A stretch of 33,410 bases of DNA from Prevotella sp. Its GTDB lineage: Bacteria > Bacteroidota > Bacteroidia > Bacteroidales > Bacteroidaceae. This document shows positions 500-33,270 of the stretch, piece after piece (within the stretch, counting starts at the first letter, position 1; each line of letters starts with the position of its first letter). Under the pieces are notes generated by a model. It did no database searches. It saw only the letters and a program-made list of their open reading frames with translations, and had not been told where the DNA came from. The stretch spans positions 1 to 33,410 of the forward strand of contig JAFWSS010000137.1 in the NCBI GenBank assembly GCA_017524385.1. The letters run 5' to 3'. A program made the position numbers and the translations under genes.

Positions 500-1210
500 A
501 TGAGATATCTTCGTCGTTTGGCATGCTGCTTCTTGTGGGCGACCCTTTTGCCGCTTATGGCTCAAGGTGCCGTAATCCATAGGGACACCACGGTGGTGGT
601 ATCGACACCCTCTGTCAGGATGGTGCATGGTGGGACTGCCAACCTCAGCATACAAATGGAAAACAACGATGAAACGGAATATAATGGATATCAGTTCGAT
701 ATCCAACTGCCTCAGGGAGTGGCCATCGCAAAAAACGACTCAGACTTCATCTACTCCCTTTCTAAACGATACGATGAAAAAGCAAAGGTGAGAATACAGG
801 ACTACGAAGATGGCTGTTACCGCTTCATGGTGATCTCTCTTTCCGATTCCATCATTACAGGTACTGATGGTGAACTCATCTCTCTTGTCTTGCAGACTGA
901 CTCCACACTGGAAACAGGGACCTACCAGGGGACGGTGTTCAATTTCAAACTCAGCAGCAGGATTGGGGTCACGTTCATGGGTAACGATGCCGCTTTCGAC
1001 ATTCTGATACAAGACCAAGAGACCTTCTTGATGGGCGATGTCAATCATGATGGCATCGTCGACATCTCAGACGTGATGATGACGGTGAATTATTCCGTGG
1101 GAAAGAAATTGCTGGACTTCTACATCGAAGAGGCGGAAACCAATGACGACGGTGAAATCGACATCGTGGATGTCATGAACATCCTTAACATCGTGGTCAG
1201 GAAATATTAA
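500..1210 (+). CDS. Secreted protein with a cohesin-like domain and a C-terminal type I dockerin
   Basis: The 236-residue product begins with a signal peptide (MRYLRRLACCFLWATLLPLM, cleavage near AQG). Residues of about 30-165 form a beta-rich domain with a pattern typical of cohesin-like modules (NLSIQMENN, GYQFDIQLPQGV, GELISLVLQT). The C-terminus from about residue 180 has two dockerin calcium loops, GDVNHDGIVDISDV and TNDDGEIDIVDV, each followed by a helix. The ATG at 500 is preceded by AAGGAAA, a plausible ribosome site, and it is the point where the signal peptide starts; the upstream ATG at 452 would add unrelated residues and overlap the preceding gene. Having both a cohesin-like module and a dockerin in one small protein suggests self-assembly or display on partner proteins. 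This is inference. Confidence 0.75.
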   Translation: MRYLRRLACCFLWATLLPLMAQGAVIHRDTTVVVSTPSVRMVHGGTANLSIQMENNDETEYNGYQFDIQLPQGVAIAKNDSDFIYSLSKRYDEKAKVRIQDYEDGCYRFMVISLSDSIITGTDGELISLVLQTDSTLETGTYQGTVFNFKLSSRIGVTFMGNDAAFDILIQDQETFLMGDVNHDGIVDISDVMMTVNYSVGKKLLDFYIEEAETNDDGEIDIVDVMNILNIVVRKY

Positions 1211-1265
1211 AAGGGAGTTAAAAGGGAGTTAAAGGGGAGTTAGAAAGGAGTTAAAGAGACATATG
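1209..1265 (+). repeat. Purine-rich 11-bp tandem array after the dockerin gene, with GACATATG end
   Basis: Directly after the stop codon come about five units of the form AGTTAAAAGGG, then GACATATG at 1258-1265. Its reverse complement is nearly identical over about 40 bp to the array in the fhs leader (31384-31430). It lies in the convergent gap 1211-1438, which holds no gene. Confidence 0.85.
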
Positions 1266-5442: not shown

Positions 5443-5556
5443 GTGATAGGATTGATAGGATTTTCTAGATTTTCTAGATTCTCTAGATTTTCTAGACTTT
5501 CTAGACTTTCTAGACTTTCTAGATTCTCTAGATTTTATATATCCTCCTATCTCCTC
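5443..5556. repeat. 9-bp TTTCTAGAN tandem array flanked by inverted GATAGGA units
   Basis: Nine or so units containing TCTAGA fill 5461-5535. They are bracketed by GATAGGATTGATAGGA on the left and TCCTCCTATCTCCTCC on the right, which pair with each other. The array ends at the stop codon of the porin gene (5557-5559). On the porin's coding strand the part next to the stop is purine-rich and the distal part pyrimidine-rich. Confidence 0.85.
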
Positions 5557-6690: not shown

Positions 6691-6780
6691 TAAGGTCTTT
6701 AGGGTCTTTGGGGTCCTTAAGGTCTTTAGGGTCCTTGGGGTCCTTAAGGTCTTTAAGGTCCTTGGGGTCCTTGGAGTCTC
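6691..6780. repeat. 9-bp tandem array (GGTCCTTNN), about ten units
   Basis: Units of GGTCTTTAG, GGTCCTTGG and GGTCCTTAA repeat with a 9-bp period and end at the rlmD stop codon (6781). Because the period is a multiple of three, all frames stay open and give artificial Lys-Asp-Pro or Val-Leu repeat peptides, which I do not call as genes. Confidence 0.9.
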
Positions 6781-13309: not shown

Positions 13310-14902
13310 CTATTTCTTGCATGTCACGGCAGCCTGTTCGATGCCCAGGCAAGCCTTGTAGTTCTCGATATACTTGTTGAATCCTGCCACGTCCTCCGGC
13401 GTCGGGGCGATTTCCACGCCAGTGTTGCCGGCGAACACCACTTCGTCGAGGAAATCGGCGAGTGTGAGGTTCTTGGGATTGTTCACCAGGAAGGCACCGA
13501 GGAGCGCCATGCCCCATGGGCCACCTTCACCGGCAGTCTCCATCACGGAGATGGGGGAGTCGATGGCGGCTGCGAGGATGCGCTGTCCCACACCTTTGGT
13601 CTTGAACAGTCCGCCGTGTCCTGTGATGCGGTCCACCTTGACATTCTCCTTCTTGAAAAGGATGTCGTTGCCAATCTTCAACACGCCGACAGAAGCGTAG
13701 AGGTGTGCGCGCATGAAATTGGCCAGGTTGAAACGGTCGTTGGCGGAACGGACGAAGAGCGGTCGTCCTTCCTCCATGCCGGTGACAGGCTCGCCTGAGA
13801 TGTAGTTGTAGGAGATGAGGCCGCCGCAGTCGGTGTCGCCATTGAGGGCGTTGTTGTACAACTTGCCGTACACCTCGTTCATGTCGACAGGAATGCCGAG
13901 CAACTGCTGGTACTCCTTGAACAGGTTCACCCAGGCGTTGAGGTCGCTGGTGCAGTTGTTGCAGTGCACCATGGCCACGAGGCTGCCGTCGGGAGTGGTC
14001 ACCATGTCAATCATCTCGTAGGGTTGCGACAGGTCTTTCTCGAGGACGATCATCGAGAACGACGAGGTGCCGGCGGAGACATTGCCTGTGCGCTGCTTCA
14101 CGGCGTTGGTGGCTACCATGCCCGTGCCGGCGTCGCCCTCGGGAGGACAGACGGGGATGCCGGGTTTCAGGTGGCCGGAGACATCGAGGCGCTTGGCTCC
14201 CTCAGGAGAGAGGAAACCGGCGTTCTCGCCCGCGTTGAGCGACTTGGGCAGGATGTCGAGGAGTTTCCATCCGAATCCCTTCGGTTCGATGAGTTCGTCA
14301 AACTTGCGCACCATCTCTGCATCGTAGGTCTTGGTCTTCGGGTCAACGGGAATCATGCCAGAGGCATCGCCCACGCCGAGGACGAACTGTCCTGTCACCT
14401 GCCAGTGTACATATCCTGCGAGGGTGGTGAGGAACTTGATGCTGGCGACGTGCTCCTCGTTGTCGAGGATGCATTGGTAGAGATGTGAGATGCTCCAACG
14501 GAGCGGGATGTTATAGTTGAACAGTTTGGAAAGCTCTGCTGCAGCCTTGCCGGTGTTCGTGTTGCGCCAGGTGCGGAAGGGCACCAGGATTTCTTGTTTC
14601 TCGTTGAAAGCCATGTATCCGTGCATCATGGCACTGAAGCCGATGGCGGCGAGGCTCTCGATTTCGCAGTCGTATTGCTTGAGGACGTCAGCACGGAGGT
14701 TGGCGTAGCAGTCTTGGAGTCCATACCAGATGGCTTCCACGCTATAGGTCCACAGACCGTCCACCAGTTGGTTTTCCCACTCGTGGCTTCCTTGCGCGAT
14801 GGGCTTGTTCTCTTCGTCGATGAGAACGGCCTTGATGCGTGTGGAGCCAAACTCTATTCCGAGTATGGCTTTTCCTGATTCTATCGTTTGTTTTGCGGTC
14901 AT
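13310..14902 (-). CDS. araB: L-ribulokinase (FGGY family, Bacteroidetes type)
   Basis: The kinase converts L-ribulose to L-ribulose 5-phosphate with ATP. The 530-residue product has the FGGY fold: N-terminal GIEFGSTRIKAVLIDEENKP phosphate loop, IGFSAMMHGYMAF, and PPEGDAGTGMVATNA. The second domain has GNVSAGTSSFSMIVLEKDL and the ATP-site motif DRITGHGGLFKTKGVG. It is flanked by araA upstream and arabinofuranosidase downstream, which supports ribulokinase over other FGGY kinases. The upstream gap carries a pyrimidine-rich array that can pair with the array after araA, so its translation might depend on the structure of this gap. Confidence 0.9.
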   Translation of the reverse strand: MTAKQTIESGKAILGIEFGSTRIKAVLIDEENKPIAQGSHEWENQLVDGLWTYSVEAIWYGLQDCYANLRADVLKQYDCEIESLAAIGFSAMMHGYMAFNEKQEILVPFRTWRNTNTGKAAAELSKLFNYNIPLRWSISHLYQCILDNEEHVASIKFLTTLAGYVHWQVTGQFVLGVGDASGMIPVDPKTKTYDAEMVRKFDELIEPKGFGWKLLDILPKSLNAGENAGFLSPEGAKRLDVSGHLKPGIPVCPPEGDAGTGMVATNAVKQRTGNVSAGTSSFSMIVLEKDLSQPYEMIDMVTTPDGSLVAMVHCNNCTSDLNAWVNLFKEYQQLLGIPVDMNEVYGKLYNNALNGDTDCGGLISYNYISGEPVTGMEEGRPLFVRSANDRFNLANFMRAHLYASVGVLKIGNDILFKKENVKVDRITGHGGLFKTKGVGQRILAAAIDSPISVMETAGEGGPWGMALLGAFLVNNPKNLTLADFLDEVVFAGNTGVEIAPTPEDVAGFNKYIENYKACLGIEQAAVTCKK

Positions 14903-14917
14903 GGTTGTTACATTTTT

Positions 14918-15490
14918 GGAGTTAAAGAGAAGTTAAAAGGAAGTTAAAGAGGAGTTAAAGGGACAATAGTACATTTAGTCTCGCAATCCATTGTTTTCGA
15001 TGATACCTTTGCAATAGGCATTTAAATAGAAACTTGTTCCTTCAATGCTATAAACCATAGTGTTGTATGTTTCTTCAGAGACATAACCTAAATCTTTGGA
15101 TAGCATGATGTAACATCTGCATTCTTCAAGGCTGCCTTGTGCAATATTCAGCATCCTCAACTTGTCTGCTTTGCTCAGTTTTTTATAGCCTTCTGCAATG
15201 TTGGCTACGATGGATACCGCTGCTCTCTGAAATTGGGAGGATAAACCAAATTTCTCAAATTCAGGGAAATTGGCAGTGACTTTATATGTCATCAGCACAA
15301 AGTCATATGCTTTCTGCCAAGCAACGATGTCCTTAAAGCTGAACGTCATATTTGTTGTTGTATATGCTATATAAGATGAACATTAGTCTATGAATTACCT
15401 TTGTAGGTATGTATATAGAGAACTGTTAGGAGAAGTAATGTCCCTTTTACTCCCTTTTAACTCCCCTATAACTCCTTTTTAACTCCTTTT
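14918..15490 (-). mobile_element. Candidate IVS-like element: S23-family gene between inverted tandem arrays
   Basis: The left arm (14918-14966) is a GGAGTTAAAG array ending in GGGACAA. The right arm (15438-15490) is ATGTCCC followed by TTTTAACTCC units. The arms are inverted copies with the GGGACA ends facing the gene; the innermost 23 bp match at about 20 positions by eye, and the whole at roughly 80 percent. In the operon transcript the arms would form a stem of about 45 bp with the S23-family gene in the loop, as in 23S rRNA intervening sequences. It lies between araA and araB, an unexpected place in a pathway operon. Calling it mobile is inference. Confidence 0.45.
14975..15349 (-). CDS. 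S23-family four-helix-bundle protein
   Basis: The 124-residue protein opens with FKDIVAWQKAYDFVLMTY, and continues with FGLSSQFQRAAVSIVANIAE and GYKKLSKADKLRMLNIAQGS. This is the pattern of the 23S rRNA intervening-sequence protein family, to which the Avd accessory proteins of diversity-generating retroelements are also related. The molecular role of standalone members is not established; Avd-type members bind nucleic acid and a reverse transcriptase. No rRNA or reverse transcriptase is near. It is encoded between araA and araB and enclosed by inverted tandem arrays. A/T content appears higher than in the neighbouring genes, which suggests separate origin. Confidence 0.85.
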   Translation of the reverse strand: MTFSFKDIVAWQKAYDFVLMTYKVTANFPEFEKFGLSSQFQRAAVSIVANIAEGYKKLSKADKLRMLNIAQGSLEECRCYIMLSKDLGYVSEETYNTMVYSIEGTSFYLNAYCKGIIENNGLRD

Positions 15491-15492
15491 CC

Positions 15493-17031
15493 TTACTTAA
15501 GCGCTTTATTAAGCATGTAATACACCTCGTTCATCTGGAGCTCATGCTTGAACTCGCTGGTCTTGGTGTCCTTGTTGATGCGGACATACTCGATGCCAAG
15601 CATTTCGGCGAAGTCTTCCCAGTACTCCTCGGTGATGTCGTAAGAGAATGCGCTGTGGTGAGTGCCACCGGCGAGGATCCAAGCACCGGCGCCAATCTCG
15701 AATGTGGGCTGCGGCACCCAGAGTGCGGAGGCGACGGGCAGGTTGGGCATGGGTTTCGGCTCGATGCACTCCACCTCTTGTGAGATGAGACGGAAGCGGT
15801 TGCCGAGGTCGACGACAGTCGCCTTGATGCCACGTCCCACCTTCGATGTGAACACGAGGCGTGCTGTCTGCTGCTTGCGGATGCCGATGCCGAGGAAGTG
15901 TACCTCAAGTTTGGGCTTGTCGGAGGCGATGAGCGGACATACCTCGAGCATGTGGCTCTGGAGGCAGGAACTGCGGTCGCCGGCGAAGTTGAGGGTGTAG
16001 TCCTCGAGGAAGGAGCAACCGGTGGGCATGCCTTGCTGGATGACCCATAGCGTGCGGTAGAGGCAAGCGGTCTTCCAGTCACCTTCGGCTCCGAAGCCGT
16101 AGCCTTCTTCCATCAGGCGCTGTGAGGCCAGGCCGGGGATTTGGTCGAAACCGACGAAGTTCGGGTCGTCGATGTCGGCGTCGCCGAGGTCGTCGAAGTT
16201 GGTGGTGAATGCTGTGGCTCCTTCGTCCTTCAGCACACGGCGGAGGGCGATTTCTGCCTTGGCGGAGTTCTTCACCTTCTCCCAGTAAACCTCTTCACCG
16301 CTCTCGTCAATCTTGATGGTGTAAAGTTTCTTGTACTCCTCTACAAGTGCGTCGGCCTCAGCGTCTGTCACTTTCTTGTAGTATTCCATCAGGGAGGAGA
16401 CGGGGTAGTAGTCGACATGGTAGCCCAGGCGCTGCTCAAACTCCACACGGTCGCCATCGGTGACGGCCACGTTGTTCATGTTCATGCCGAACATGAGGCA
16501 GCGTACGTTCTTGGCATCAGCGACACCTGCTGCCACGCGTGCCCATACGGCAATCTTCTTCTGTGCCTCTTCGCTCTTCCAGTAGCCGCAAACCACCTTG
16601 CGGGGAACGCGCATGCGAGTGCAGATATGGCCGAACTCGATGTCTCCGTGAGCACTCTGGTTCAGGTTCATGAAGTCCATGTCCATCGTCTCCCATGGAA
16701 TTTCGGCGTTGTATTGTGTGTGGAAGTGGAGCAGCGGCTTCTGGAGAGCCTGCAACCCCTTGATCCACATCTTGGCGGGGGAGAAGGTGTGCATCCAGGT
16801 GATGATGCCCACGCACTTCTCGTCGTTGTTGGCGGCTTTCATCACGTCTTCCACTTCCTTGCTGCTGTTGGCTGTGCCTTTGTAGACCACCTTGATGGGG
16901 AGGTTGCCACTGGCGTTGAGGCCTTCAACCATCTCCTTGGAGTGTCCGTCTACTTGTACCACGGCGTCGCCTCCGTAAAGAAGTTGTGCACCGGTTACCC
17001 ACCAAATTTCATAATTCTCGAATGCTTTCAT
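15493..17031 (-). CDS. araA: L-arabinose isomerase
   Basis: AraA interconverts L-arabinose and L-ribulose in the cytosol, with a divalent metal. The 512-residue product matches the family in length. Features are EIWWVTGAQLLYGGDAVVQV at the start, KCVGIITWMHTFSPAKMWIK, LLHFHTQYNAEIPW, and the active-site region EEGYGFGAEGDWKTACLYR. Later blocks are GDRSSCLQSHMLEVCP and GGTHHSAFSYD. The gap to araD is 102 bp, and the stop codon is directly followed by a purine-rich array that starts the S23-type element. Position between araD and araB fits the usual Bacteroidetes arabinose locus. Confidence 0.97.
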   Translation of the reverse strand: MKAFENYEIWWVTGAQLLYGGDAVVQVDGHSKEMVEGLNASGNLPIKVVYKGTANSSKEVEDVMKAANNDEKCVGIITWMHTFSPAKMWIKGLQALQKPLLHFHTQYNAEIPWETMDMDFMNLNQSAHGDIEFGHICTRMRVPRKVVCGYWKSEEAQKKIAVWARVAAGVADAKNVRCLMFGMNMNNVAVTDGDRVEFEQRLGYHVDYYPVSSLMEYYKKVTDAEADALVEEYKKLYTIKIDESGEEVYWEKVKNSAKAEIALRRVLKDEGATAFTTNFDDLGDADIDDPNFVGFDQIPGLASQRLMEEGYGFGAEGDWKTACLYRTLWVIQQGMPTGCSFLEDYTLNFAGDRSSCLQSHMLEVCPLIASDKPKLEVHFLGIGIRKQQTARLVFTSKVGRGIKATVVDLGNRFRLISQEVECIEPKPMPNLPVASALWVPQPTFEIGAGAWILAGGTHHSAFSYDITEEYWEDFAEMLGIEYVRINKDTKTSEFKHELQMNEVYYMLNKALK

Positions 17032-21914: not shown

Positions 21915-23078
<1,164 letters not shown>

Positions 23079-23089
23079 GATATTTAGTT

Positions 23090-23155
23090 TTTAGTTTTGA
23101 GTTTTGATAATTGAGATTTTATTTGATTTGAGATTTGAGAATTGAGATTTTATTT
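23090..23155. repeat. Left arm of the inverted array around the broken S23-family gene
   Basis: Units such as TTTGAGTTTTGA, GATTTGAGATTTGAG and AATTGAGATTTTA repeat at 7-8 bp. GATTTGAGATTTGAG recurs inverted in the right arm at 23535-23555. The arm lies between the pseudogene stop and the galK start codon at 23078. Confidence 0.75.
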
Positions 23156-23525
23156 CTGAGATTTTGTGGTTTTTACAATTTTCGTGAGAACAGCATATAT
23201 ATGATTCCAATCTCTATACAACGAATTGTATTCCTTGTCATCAACATAATCTGCCTTATGTAAAAGATTTATCCAGAATCCCGTTTCTCCTGCTTCTTTG
23301 AGTGCTATGCCCATTTTTGAATGTAAAATCATCCCTGCTATAAGCATTTTTCCCCTCAAAAGTGTTCGCGCCAATACTGGTTCCTGAACGAAATAGTTGT
23401 TTGGATATAACCCATTCTTTCTTTTCCTCAGTGAGATATTGATTGAGTTTGACAATGCGTAAAGCAAAATTACTCGTTAAGTCATAGACATTACTTTCAG
23501 TAATATGATTTGGTGCCATTGTCAT
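23150..23525 (-). pseudogene. S23-family four-helix-bundle gene, frameshifted
   Basis: Two overlapping frames together make one family member. The first half (MAPNHITESNVYDLTSNFAL to SGTSIGANTFEGKNAYSRDD) reads from about 23519-23525. The second half (KMGIALKEAGETGFWINLLH to TKIVKTTKSQK) continues in the next frame. The switch lies at a run of five T on the plus strand (23314-23318); removal of one base restores FTFKMGIALKEAGET, which fits the family. It could be a true null allele, a slipping homopolymer switch, or an assembly error. It lies between the MFS transporter gene and galK and is enclosed by inverted short arrays, as the intact copy in the arabinose operon is. Confidence 0.85.
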
Positions 23526-23529
23526 ATTC

Positions 23530-23555
23530 AAACCTCAAACCTCAAATCTCAAATC
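23530..23555. repeat. Right arm of the inverted array around the broken S23-family gene
   Basis: AAACCTCAAACCTCAAATCT and CAAATCC are 7-bp units that are the reverse complement of the GGATTTGAGATTTGAG type in the left arm (23090-23155). It lies just past the MFS stop codon. Confidence 0.75.
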
Positions 23556-23559
23556 CATT

Positions 23560-27480: not shown

Positions 27481-27489
27481 GGGCAAGGA

Positions 27490-27675
27490 TTAATCTGAGT
27501 GATCGGAGTAATCGGAGTGGTCGGAGTAATCGGAGTAATCGGAGTAATCGGAGTGGTAGGAAATTACGACATTAGTATTGTCATTCGCGGAGTAATGTCT
27601 TTAACTTCGAGCGTAGCGATAACTTCTCTAACTTCTCTAACTTCTTAATTCTATCTTCTCTCCCTTCTCTCCCTT
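27490..27675. repeat. Inverted arrays with GACATTA/TAATGTC centre between dnaJ and folC
   Basis: Left part: nine-bp TCGGAGTAA units (27491-27560). Centre: GACATTA (27568-27574) and TAATGTC (27593-27599), exact inverted copies 18 bp apart. Right part: TAACTTCTC and CTTCTCTCC units (27600-27675) against the dnaJ stop codon. On the coding strand it is purine-rich next to the dnaJ stop and pyrimidine-rich next to the folC start. The order is that of the S23 element, without the gene. Confidence 0.8.
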
Positions 27676-29514: not shown

Positions 29515-31290
<1,776 letters not shown>

Positions 31291-31292
31291 CA

Positions 31293-31322
31293 GCCAAATT
31301 TCGATAGTCAACTTTCGCAAGC
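31293..31322 (+). other. Leader motif shared with 2191-2220
   Basis: GCCAAATTTCGATAGTCAAC and TTTCGCAAGC at the start of the fhs leader is a near copy of the leader of the secreted hypothetical at 1439-2104. Confidence 0.6.
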
Positions 31323-31351
31323 GAGGAAAAATCAAGGTGTAAAGTAAGGTT

Positions 31352-31411
31352 ATGAAGATGTATGGATGGCCTCTTTGTAAGTGTACATATGTCCCTTTAA
31401 CTCCTTTTTAA
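31352..31411 (+). CDS. Possible 19-codon leader ORF of fhs
   Basis: ATG at 31352 opens a short frame ([19 protein letters not shown]) that stops at 31409-31411, 22 bp before fhs. Its last third is encoded by the tandem array. AAGG lies two bases before the ATG, too near for a normal ribosome site. It may be chance; a role as a leader peptide is speculative. Confidence 0.2.
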
Positions 31412-31430
31412 CTCCCCTTTAACTCCTAAA
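31384..31430 (+). repeat. TTTAACTCC tandem array with CATATGTC head in the fhs leader
   Basis: TACATATGTCCC is followed by about four TTTAACTCC-type units and ends three bases before the fhs start codon. It is the inverted counterpart of 1209-1268. Confidence 0.85.
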
Positions 31431-33112: not shown

Positions 33113-33221
33113 TTTCGAAGTTAAAGAAGTTAATGAAGTTAATGAAGTTAATGAATTAATGAATTAATGAAGTTATCGAAGTTAATGAAGTTATCGAAGT
33201 TAATGAAGTTATCGAAGTTAA
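33113..33221 (+). repeat. 9-bp GAAGTTAAT/GAAGTTATC tandem array after fhs
   Basis: About twelve 9-bp units begin a few bases past the fhs stop codon and end in GACATATG (33221-33228). The gap 33105-33410 otherwise holds the right 29-bp inverted repeat and a short open frame that runs off the window. Confidence 0.9.
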
Positions 33222-33270
33222 TGACATATGATTTGCCAATGGCATCTCCTTTCCCCGACAATTGTCTCTA

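Follow-up and report, generated by a model that had tools for sequence, protein, structure and literature searches.

An S23 gene between inverted tandem arrays in a Prevotella arabinose operon as part of a probable small mobile DNA element

What is an S23 gene doing in an operon for sugar metabolism? S23 proteins are known from the intervening sequences (IVSs) of 23S rRNA genes; they occur across bacteria and their structures have been solved, and they have been reported to have no known function (PMC4990558). The question is raised by a 33,410-nt stretch of DNA from Prevotella sp. (contig JAFWSS010000137.1, here called the window, part of a 5.05 Mb genome with the code G000), in which an S23 gene flanked by inverted tandem arrays lies between araA and an FGGY kinase gene, outside any 23S rRNA gene. 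Array, gene and array together are likely to be a small mobile DNA element, with gene-less relatives of which some resemble miniature inverted-repeat transposable elements (MITEs) and others are solo arrays, and with the S23 protein most likely acting on the arms. This answer draws on the anatomy of such elements and its statistics, on their patchy presence, on a match between S23 lineage and array unit, on genome-specific dispersal of the tested motifs and on one clean target duplication.

The gene at 15493-17031 (minus strand), araA, encodes a clear L-arabinose isomerase (NF002795, E 1e-227). The gene on the other side (13310-14902, minus strand) is called araB by position: its product is an FGGY kinase, for which the best matches in NCBIfam, XylB and ribulokinase, are under the curated cut-offs. 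The S23 gene between them (14975-15349, minus strand) is intact and encodes 124 aa, with matches to PF05635 (E 7e-35) and TIGR02436 (E 4e-31) that score above the curated cut-offs (119.9 bits against 33.8, and 107.6 against 24). The operon-upstream arm (15436-15490, minus strand), of tandem ~11-nt units of the AGTTAAAGGG type, has its outer end 2 nt after the araA stop codon, and the operon-downstream arm, its inverted copy (14918-14968, plus strand), reaches to 15 nt before the kinase start. Their inner ends are GGGACATTA and GGGACAATA respectively, and when 15436-15486 is set against 14918-14968 the two are 82% complementary along 51 nt. The initial annotation, made from the sequence alone, had described an intact S23 gene held by inverted arrays whose GGGACA ends face inward, and on both points it was right. 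No likely gene other than S23 lies between the arms; the Pfam and NCBIfam matches of its product are to S23, to Avd-like proteins or weak and unrelated, with no known transposase (HUH, DDE, tyrosine or serine enzymes) among them.

Pairing of the arms over about 45 bp in mRNA had also been predicted, and a fold of the 590-nt gap RNA does contain 46 pairs between them. Its minimum free energy is −167.4, compared with −125.0 ± 6.1 for 100 dinucleotide shuffles (z −6.93). Such a stem could be what the arms are for. In an RNA processing device, one of two readings that the initial annotation had offered, RNase III would cut the stem in araA-araB mRNA, free the S23 message and separate the cistrons. 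The excision of the Coxiella 23S IVS by RNase III (PMC4990558) is a precedent, and between the window's genome and a sister species, G062, the arms are kept better (56/56 and 45/46 nt identical) than the 5′ spacer (only 72/87, with 15 differences). However, the mismatches in the arms of the 73 genus elements described below include 79 that are compatible with sense-strand pairing and 95 with antisense-strand pairing, with no excess of sense-strand G-U pairs, and the RNA stem as a selected function thus finds no support there. S23 elements also occur in many unrelated contexts, with the gene oriented opposite to its neighbors in several phage and plasmid loci, and dispersed copies of the window arm are mostly without a partner to pair with. 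The device reading is accordingly quite improbable. A stem would form in RNA, and its cleavage by RNase III may be a by-product.

The presence of the element is patchy, as a comparison of araA-araB gaps in relatives, which the initial annotation had proposed, makes plain. araA is upstream at 19 of 30 araB loci, and S23 is there in just two of these, in the window's genome and in G062, whose kinase is 97% identical to that of the window. The remaining 17 junctions, at which a device separating araA from araB would be missing, have gaps of 0-153 nt (575 in one) with no S23 match, and two of them hold a solo array of another unit. At viral sites, found via a neighboring gene, S23 is present in 3/80, 2/80 and 1/80. 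Neither the same gene with unrelated flanks in every relative nor the lack of a stable stem, the two outcomes that had been named as fatal to the initial proposal, was found.

Inverted arms around S23 genes are not peculiar to the arabinose operon. Of 60 genomes from the genus, 52 have S23 matches, and the number per genome ranges from 0 to 15, fragments and longer relatives being counted. The loci analyzed were 90 (30 + 60) from a longer match list, taken in order of score and not by their flanks, together with four from the window's own genome; they gave 96 S23 open reading frames (ORFs), 92 from relatives and four from that genome, with L004/L005, the broken window gene, and L017, which has a flank under 100 nt, set aside. 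For each, the 200 nt on the upstream side were compared with the 200 nt on the downstream side in reverse complement, with a threshold score of 30 or more. Inverted flanks were found for 73 of the 96 and direct ones for six; the counts for control ORFs of the same loci were 9 and 12 of 226, and 5.3% of 947 cross-locus flank pairs reached the threshold. A period was clear in the arms of 61 of the 73 elements: 7 or 14 in 31, 8 in 22 and 9-12 in eight. The unit varies by element (AGTTCAT, AGTGAGA, ATTGAAA, AGTAAAA, GGTACGA and others), also within one genome, and arm similarity rises with S23 protein similarity: for 2546 pairs that do not share their surroundings the Spearman coefficient is 0.29, a value that none of 1000 permutations reached. 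The arms thus travel with the S23 gene.

The arrays could have come first, made in intergenic regions by slippage, with S23 genes as mere passengers between them. Arrays of many units are common, in S23-free genomes as well, and Tandem Repeats Finder listed 44 array rows in the window. Yet the flanks are inverted, not direct, both arms share one unit, this unit goes with S23 lineage even where the sites are unrelated, and at the best-resolved insertion site a target duplication surrounds arm, gene and arm as a single unit; a site-first origin is very unlikely.

Outside the genus, the 80 best loci from a scan of GTDB species gave a wide set from Bacteroidota, Acidobacteria, Planctomycetes, Proteobacteria, Clostridia, Omnitrophica and others, as judged by record title. 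For this set and for viral contigs, ORFs with a flank under 100 nt were set aside. Inverted arms were found at 46 of 83 wide-set ORFs and direct ones at five (controls: nine inverted and three direct of 212), and at 26 and two, respectively, of 42 viral ORFs, near-identical contigs being kept in the count. No rRNA match was found in any of the 80 wide-set loci. One Terriglobia S23 gene (L198) is flanked by inverted AGTTCTC arrays that match each other over a very long stretch (score 310, with about 155 nt matching), and this element is perhaps recent. For plasmids, 12 of 33 matching records were compared; all 12 come from cyanobacteria and rank high among the 33. Seven of them, L648 included, have inverted arms scoring 45 or more. 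The plasmid S23 genes have ribonucleotide reductase subunit genes on both sides, are set among transfer and hypothetical genes or, in two cases (L648 and L654), lie between cas6 and cas4. Both of the latter have inverted arms; in L648 the direct array similarity is even stronger, and in L654 the arms are 178 and 69 nt from the gene.

On cyanobacterial plasmids occupied and empty sites can be aligned closely. An S23 element sits between two copies of GTAAT in plasmid C of Trichormus variabilis (L651) and in a Scytonema plasmid (L727), and the related plasmids L717, L725, L726 and L728 have one GTAAT and no element (all four of those compared, out of six element-free records at 97.5-98.1% identity). 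The element in L651 is 423 nt long. When 300 nt on either side of the site are compared between L651 and L717, identity is 99.7% and 99.0%, and the chance of a 5-nt match is about 1 in 1000. At the same plasmid site another record (L721, 935-1090) has a decayed S23 element, with an arm and an apparent gene start. At a different plasmid site, that of L652, two array-like arms of the GGGAAC type lie without S23 between them (L724, 915-1190).

Relatives without the gene occur in the same genomes. Counts of arm motifs cover 150 genomes, the motifs having been picked for distinctive inner ends and not at random; dispersal of the arm ends is clearly genome-specific for two of the motifs and partly so for the other two. 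The inner arm motif of the window element, GGAGTTAAAGGGACA, has 170 copies in its own genome, 43 in G062 and 6, 4, 2, 1 and 1 in five other genomes, and it is absent from the remaining 143; reversed, the pattern matches once across all 150. An inverted partner within 150 nt was found for only one of 28 distinct copies (L285-L312, mostly from G000 and G062), and these copies are therefore mostly solo arrays. A second motif, GGTACGAGGATAGAC, which belongs to the arms of one of the S23 elements in G034, has 38 copies in that genome and none in the 149 others. All 12 copies read (L333-L344) are gene-less hairpins, with two arms and a shared conserved center of about 36 nt. The third, GTAGAGTTTGCTACCGC, is found in 15 of the 150 genomes, in up to 20 copies and often as plus/minus pairs 30-45 nt apart. 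By coordinates it adjoins an S23 match in six of these genomes, four of which have it on either side of the match, and an S23 match is present in 19 of the 20 genomes queried for its neighborhood. In 13 of the 20 loci read it falls within an ORF of at least 120 aa, or in 11 when the S23 element L320 and the repeat L329 (the same as L314) are subtracted. Gene-less hairpins also occur inside open protein genes (L331, 388-2199; L332, 1105-2292; L372-L391). One linker of a fucosidase-like gene holds different hairpins in different species, and the hairpin there in G031 (L374) has an inner end like that of the S23 element of the same genome (L096). Of the two readings in the initial annotation, it is the travelling IVS-type element that has held up, with two of 19 junctions occupied, arms that match S23 lineage at unrelated sites, a dispersed arm motif and a 5-bp duplication in plasmids.

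Dispersed arrays that match an S23 arm genome-specifically could, on their own, mark a regulator, a host S23 protein that binds arrays genome-wide, as DNA or RNA, and controls expression or the nucleoid, with the elements spread by ordinary recombination. The gene itself appears to be under purifying selection, as judged from its divergence between G000 and G062 (nonsynonymous, dN, 0.017; synonymous, dS, 0.165; dN/dS about 0.10), as a regulator would be. Patchy presence, 0-15 matches per genome and different units within one genome do not fit such a role, nor do the target duplication and the occurrence in viral contigs and conjugative plasmids, and little weight is given to it.

The model of the window S23 protein (predicted local distance difference test 94.8) matches the S23 structures 2gsc and 2rld, and Avd more weakly, and in this model the protein has the four-helix-bundle fold of the solved family members. 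Six polar residues, Q39, R42, S46, N50, E53 and E76, each occur in no fewer than 98.8% of the 241 rows of an alignment in which the window protein is counted twice, near-identical copies are kept and the wide set was found by a peptide pattern fixing S46, N50 and E53; the next column is at 86.7%. All six are invariant in a 32-sequence genus alignment. S23 of X. campestris is reported to be a homopentamer (PMC4990558). PADLOC gave no defense match for the window protein, and for another S23 protein one weak match to REase_II (E 0.003).

The likeness to Avd brings in a retro-element, in which a host reverse transcriptase would copy the arm-S23-arm transcript and S23 would be its partner, as Avd is in diversity-generating retroelements. 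A match to RVT_1 is lacking, however, in seven of 15 near-complete S23-bearing genomes, including the one with the most S23 matches (G028, 15), and the arm mismatches are without strand bias. Dependence on a reverse transcriptase is unlikely on this count of genomes, and the retro-element as a whole is unlikely also.

The mobile-element reading may be put together as follows. The S23 gene and its two inverted arrays would be one mobile unit of about 0.4-0.6 kb, with arms that serve as terminal inverted repeats and consist of a few short tandem units, mostly of 7-8 nt and about 11 nt in the window element. Each S23 lineage would carry its own units. The unit would insert at gene junctions and duplicate a short stretch of the target, 5 bp at the best-resolved site. 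The short-centered two-arm hairpins, MITE-like and some of them within ORFs, and the solo arrays would be the gene-less relatives in the same genomes. S23 would most likely recognize its own arms and mediate or assist movement, perhaps as the recombinase itself, with the six-residue polar site as the candidate for strand breakage. S23-bearing 23S rRNA IVSs are probably the rRNA-resident form of the same array-S23-array element. A broader proposal is advanced tentatively, as possible but short of likely: S23 proteins would be DNA recombinases of a new class, four-helix bundles whose six polar residues form a site and which recognize short tandem arrays as terminal inverted repeats. They would have founded a mobile superfamily across bacteria, phages and plasmids, and would be the source of S23-bearing IVSs and of at least part of the heptamer array landscapes known from cyanobacteria, Xanthomonas and Bacteroidota. 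The element class would probably be new, because no known element family is matched in full here, and the IVSs would probably be members.

Several observations weigh against this reading. The 5-bp target duplication is clean at one site only: at a second plasmid site it is 3 nt (empty record 94.7% identical), at a third there is none (empty record 94.6% identical), and neither at the plasmid junctions L646/L720 and L653/L719 nor at the araA-araB site of the window is a duplication length readable. Empty sites are clear for the phage junctions, where the edges are too divergent for a sure duplication. The arm threshold is missed by 23 of the 96 ORFs from the genus and by 37 of the 83 from the wide set. 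S23 has no known nuclease or recombinase motif, and its fold is shared with Avd, which is not a transposase. The center of the G034 hairpins was not seen, by eye, in that genome's S23 element (L092), and the hairpins are thus not simple deletion derivatives of it. GTAGAGTTTGCTACCGC has no adjacent S23 match in nine genomes. A fourth motif, of 13 nt, is only partly specific: it is in 36 of 150 genomes, with 39, 13, 13 and 5 copies in four bearers and also 59, 28 and 25 in G052, G064 and G028. Array density shows no significant trend with S23 number (Spearman 0.43, p 0.14; 13 genomes, 40-100 kb each), and the arrays of S23-free genomes, mentioned above, count on the same side.

The window has a second S23 gene, which the initial annotation had passed over. 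It lies at 23150-23531 (minus strand), between galK and a fucP-like transporter gene (both named from translations), and is a decayed copy in which a frameshift has left two ORFs. Inverted arrays of the TTTGAGA type surround it, with one arm at 23078-23155 (plus strand) and the inverted arm at 23528-23559 (minus strand, TCAAACC/TCAAATC on the plus strand). S23 is present in one of 30 galK loci, that of the window; in G062 the gap measures 51 nt and contains remnants of arrays, which may be the scar of a deletion or may belong to an array that is older. The unit of the araA-araB element recurs in the window without S23, in solo arrays at 1207-1255 (plus strand, followed by GAGACATATGTTCA) and 31387-31427 (minus strand, GGAGTTAAAGGGACATATGT). 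Other S23-free short tandem arrays are at 1334-1440, 5459-5536, 6691-6772, 27487-27561 and 33117-33224, and in the syntenic part some S23-free arrays differ in length or are missing in G062. Synteny with G062 stops near two solo AGTTAAAGGG arrays (about 1207-1407 and 31214-31427), which suggests rearrangement at dispersed arrays. Elsewhere in the window's genome two more intact S23 genes lie between arrays of other units; the flank threshold was reached by one (L003) and missed by the other (L001). A larger Avd-like relative in this genome (L006, 706-1254, 182 aa) has same-direction arrays, and another Avd-like gene (L282, 1423-2136, about 237 aa) likewise lies among short tandem arrays; these longer relatives may be a related class.

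How does the element stand to systems already known? In plan it resembles the 23S rRNA IVS, with an S23 ORF between inverted arms in about 0.43 kb, and the window element has the long RNA stem too. The Coxiella IVS, in addition to its excision by RNase III, has heptameric repeats of variable number before the S23 ORF, and proposals of mobility for IVSs are old (PMC4990558). Unlike an IVS, the window element is in a protein-coding operon, and the wide-set loci are likewise without rRNA matches. Two-sided inverted arrays, MITE-like relatives and target duplication are, in the literature consulted, not described for IVSs. No description of S23 genes with inverted tandem-array flanks as mobile elements was found in the open-licence literature, which makes for a weak negative.

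The repetitive extragenic palindromic sequences (REPs) and their REP-associated tyrosine transposases (RAYTs) are alike in that a gene lies between inverted short repeats which are dispersed in its own genome and in few others. RAYT is a Y1 HUH transposase that goes with REPs bearing GTAG/CGTC tags and is unrelated to S23 as a protein. S23, in contrast, is a four-helix bundle and its repeat is a tandem array that varies by element. Avd of diversity-generating retroelements shares the fold and a weak sequence similarity with S23, whereas the identified neighbors of the window S23 gene are for sugar metabolism. With MITEs and Rickettsia palindromic elements, the latter reported inside open reading frames (PMC10969869), there are in common gene-less inverted-arm elements and inserts within ORFs; the differences are that the arms here are short tandem arrays and that an S23 element is the proposed partner.

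Heptamer arrays have been reported as GGGAATC in Xanthomonas, GGGGA(C/T)T in Nostoc and TAACTGA in Beggiatoaceae, dispersed and mostly intergenic as S23 arms are, and many of those in Xanthomonas are convergent inverted pairs (PMC4692102, PMC4679880). They are described as generally unassociated with mobile elements (PMC4692102). The term ‘S23’ has a count of 0 in both papers. Xanthomonas campestris does encode an S23 protein, Xcc0516, the structure of which is 2gsc.

If S23 is as a rule the sole gene of an array-flanked mobile element, then a family of solved structure has a role that can be tested, a possible origin is at hand for the short tandem arrays dispersed in many bacterial genomes, and the long-standing idea that IVSs are mobile can be tested directly. 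S23 genes have been reported in cas loci (PMC3936711), and mobility could explain their association with cas/CRISPR loci. Gene and arrays together are indicated as a widespread, previously unrecognized and tiny mobile element of bacteria, plasmids and phages.
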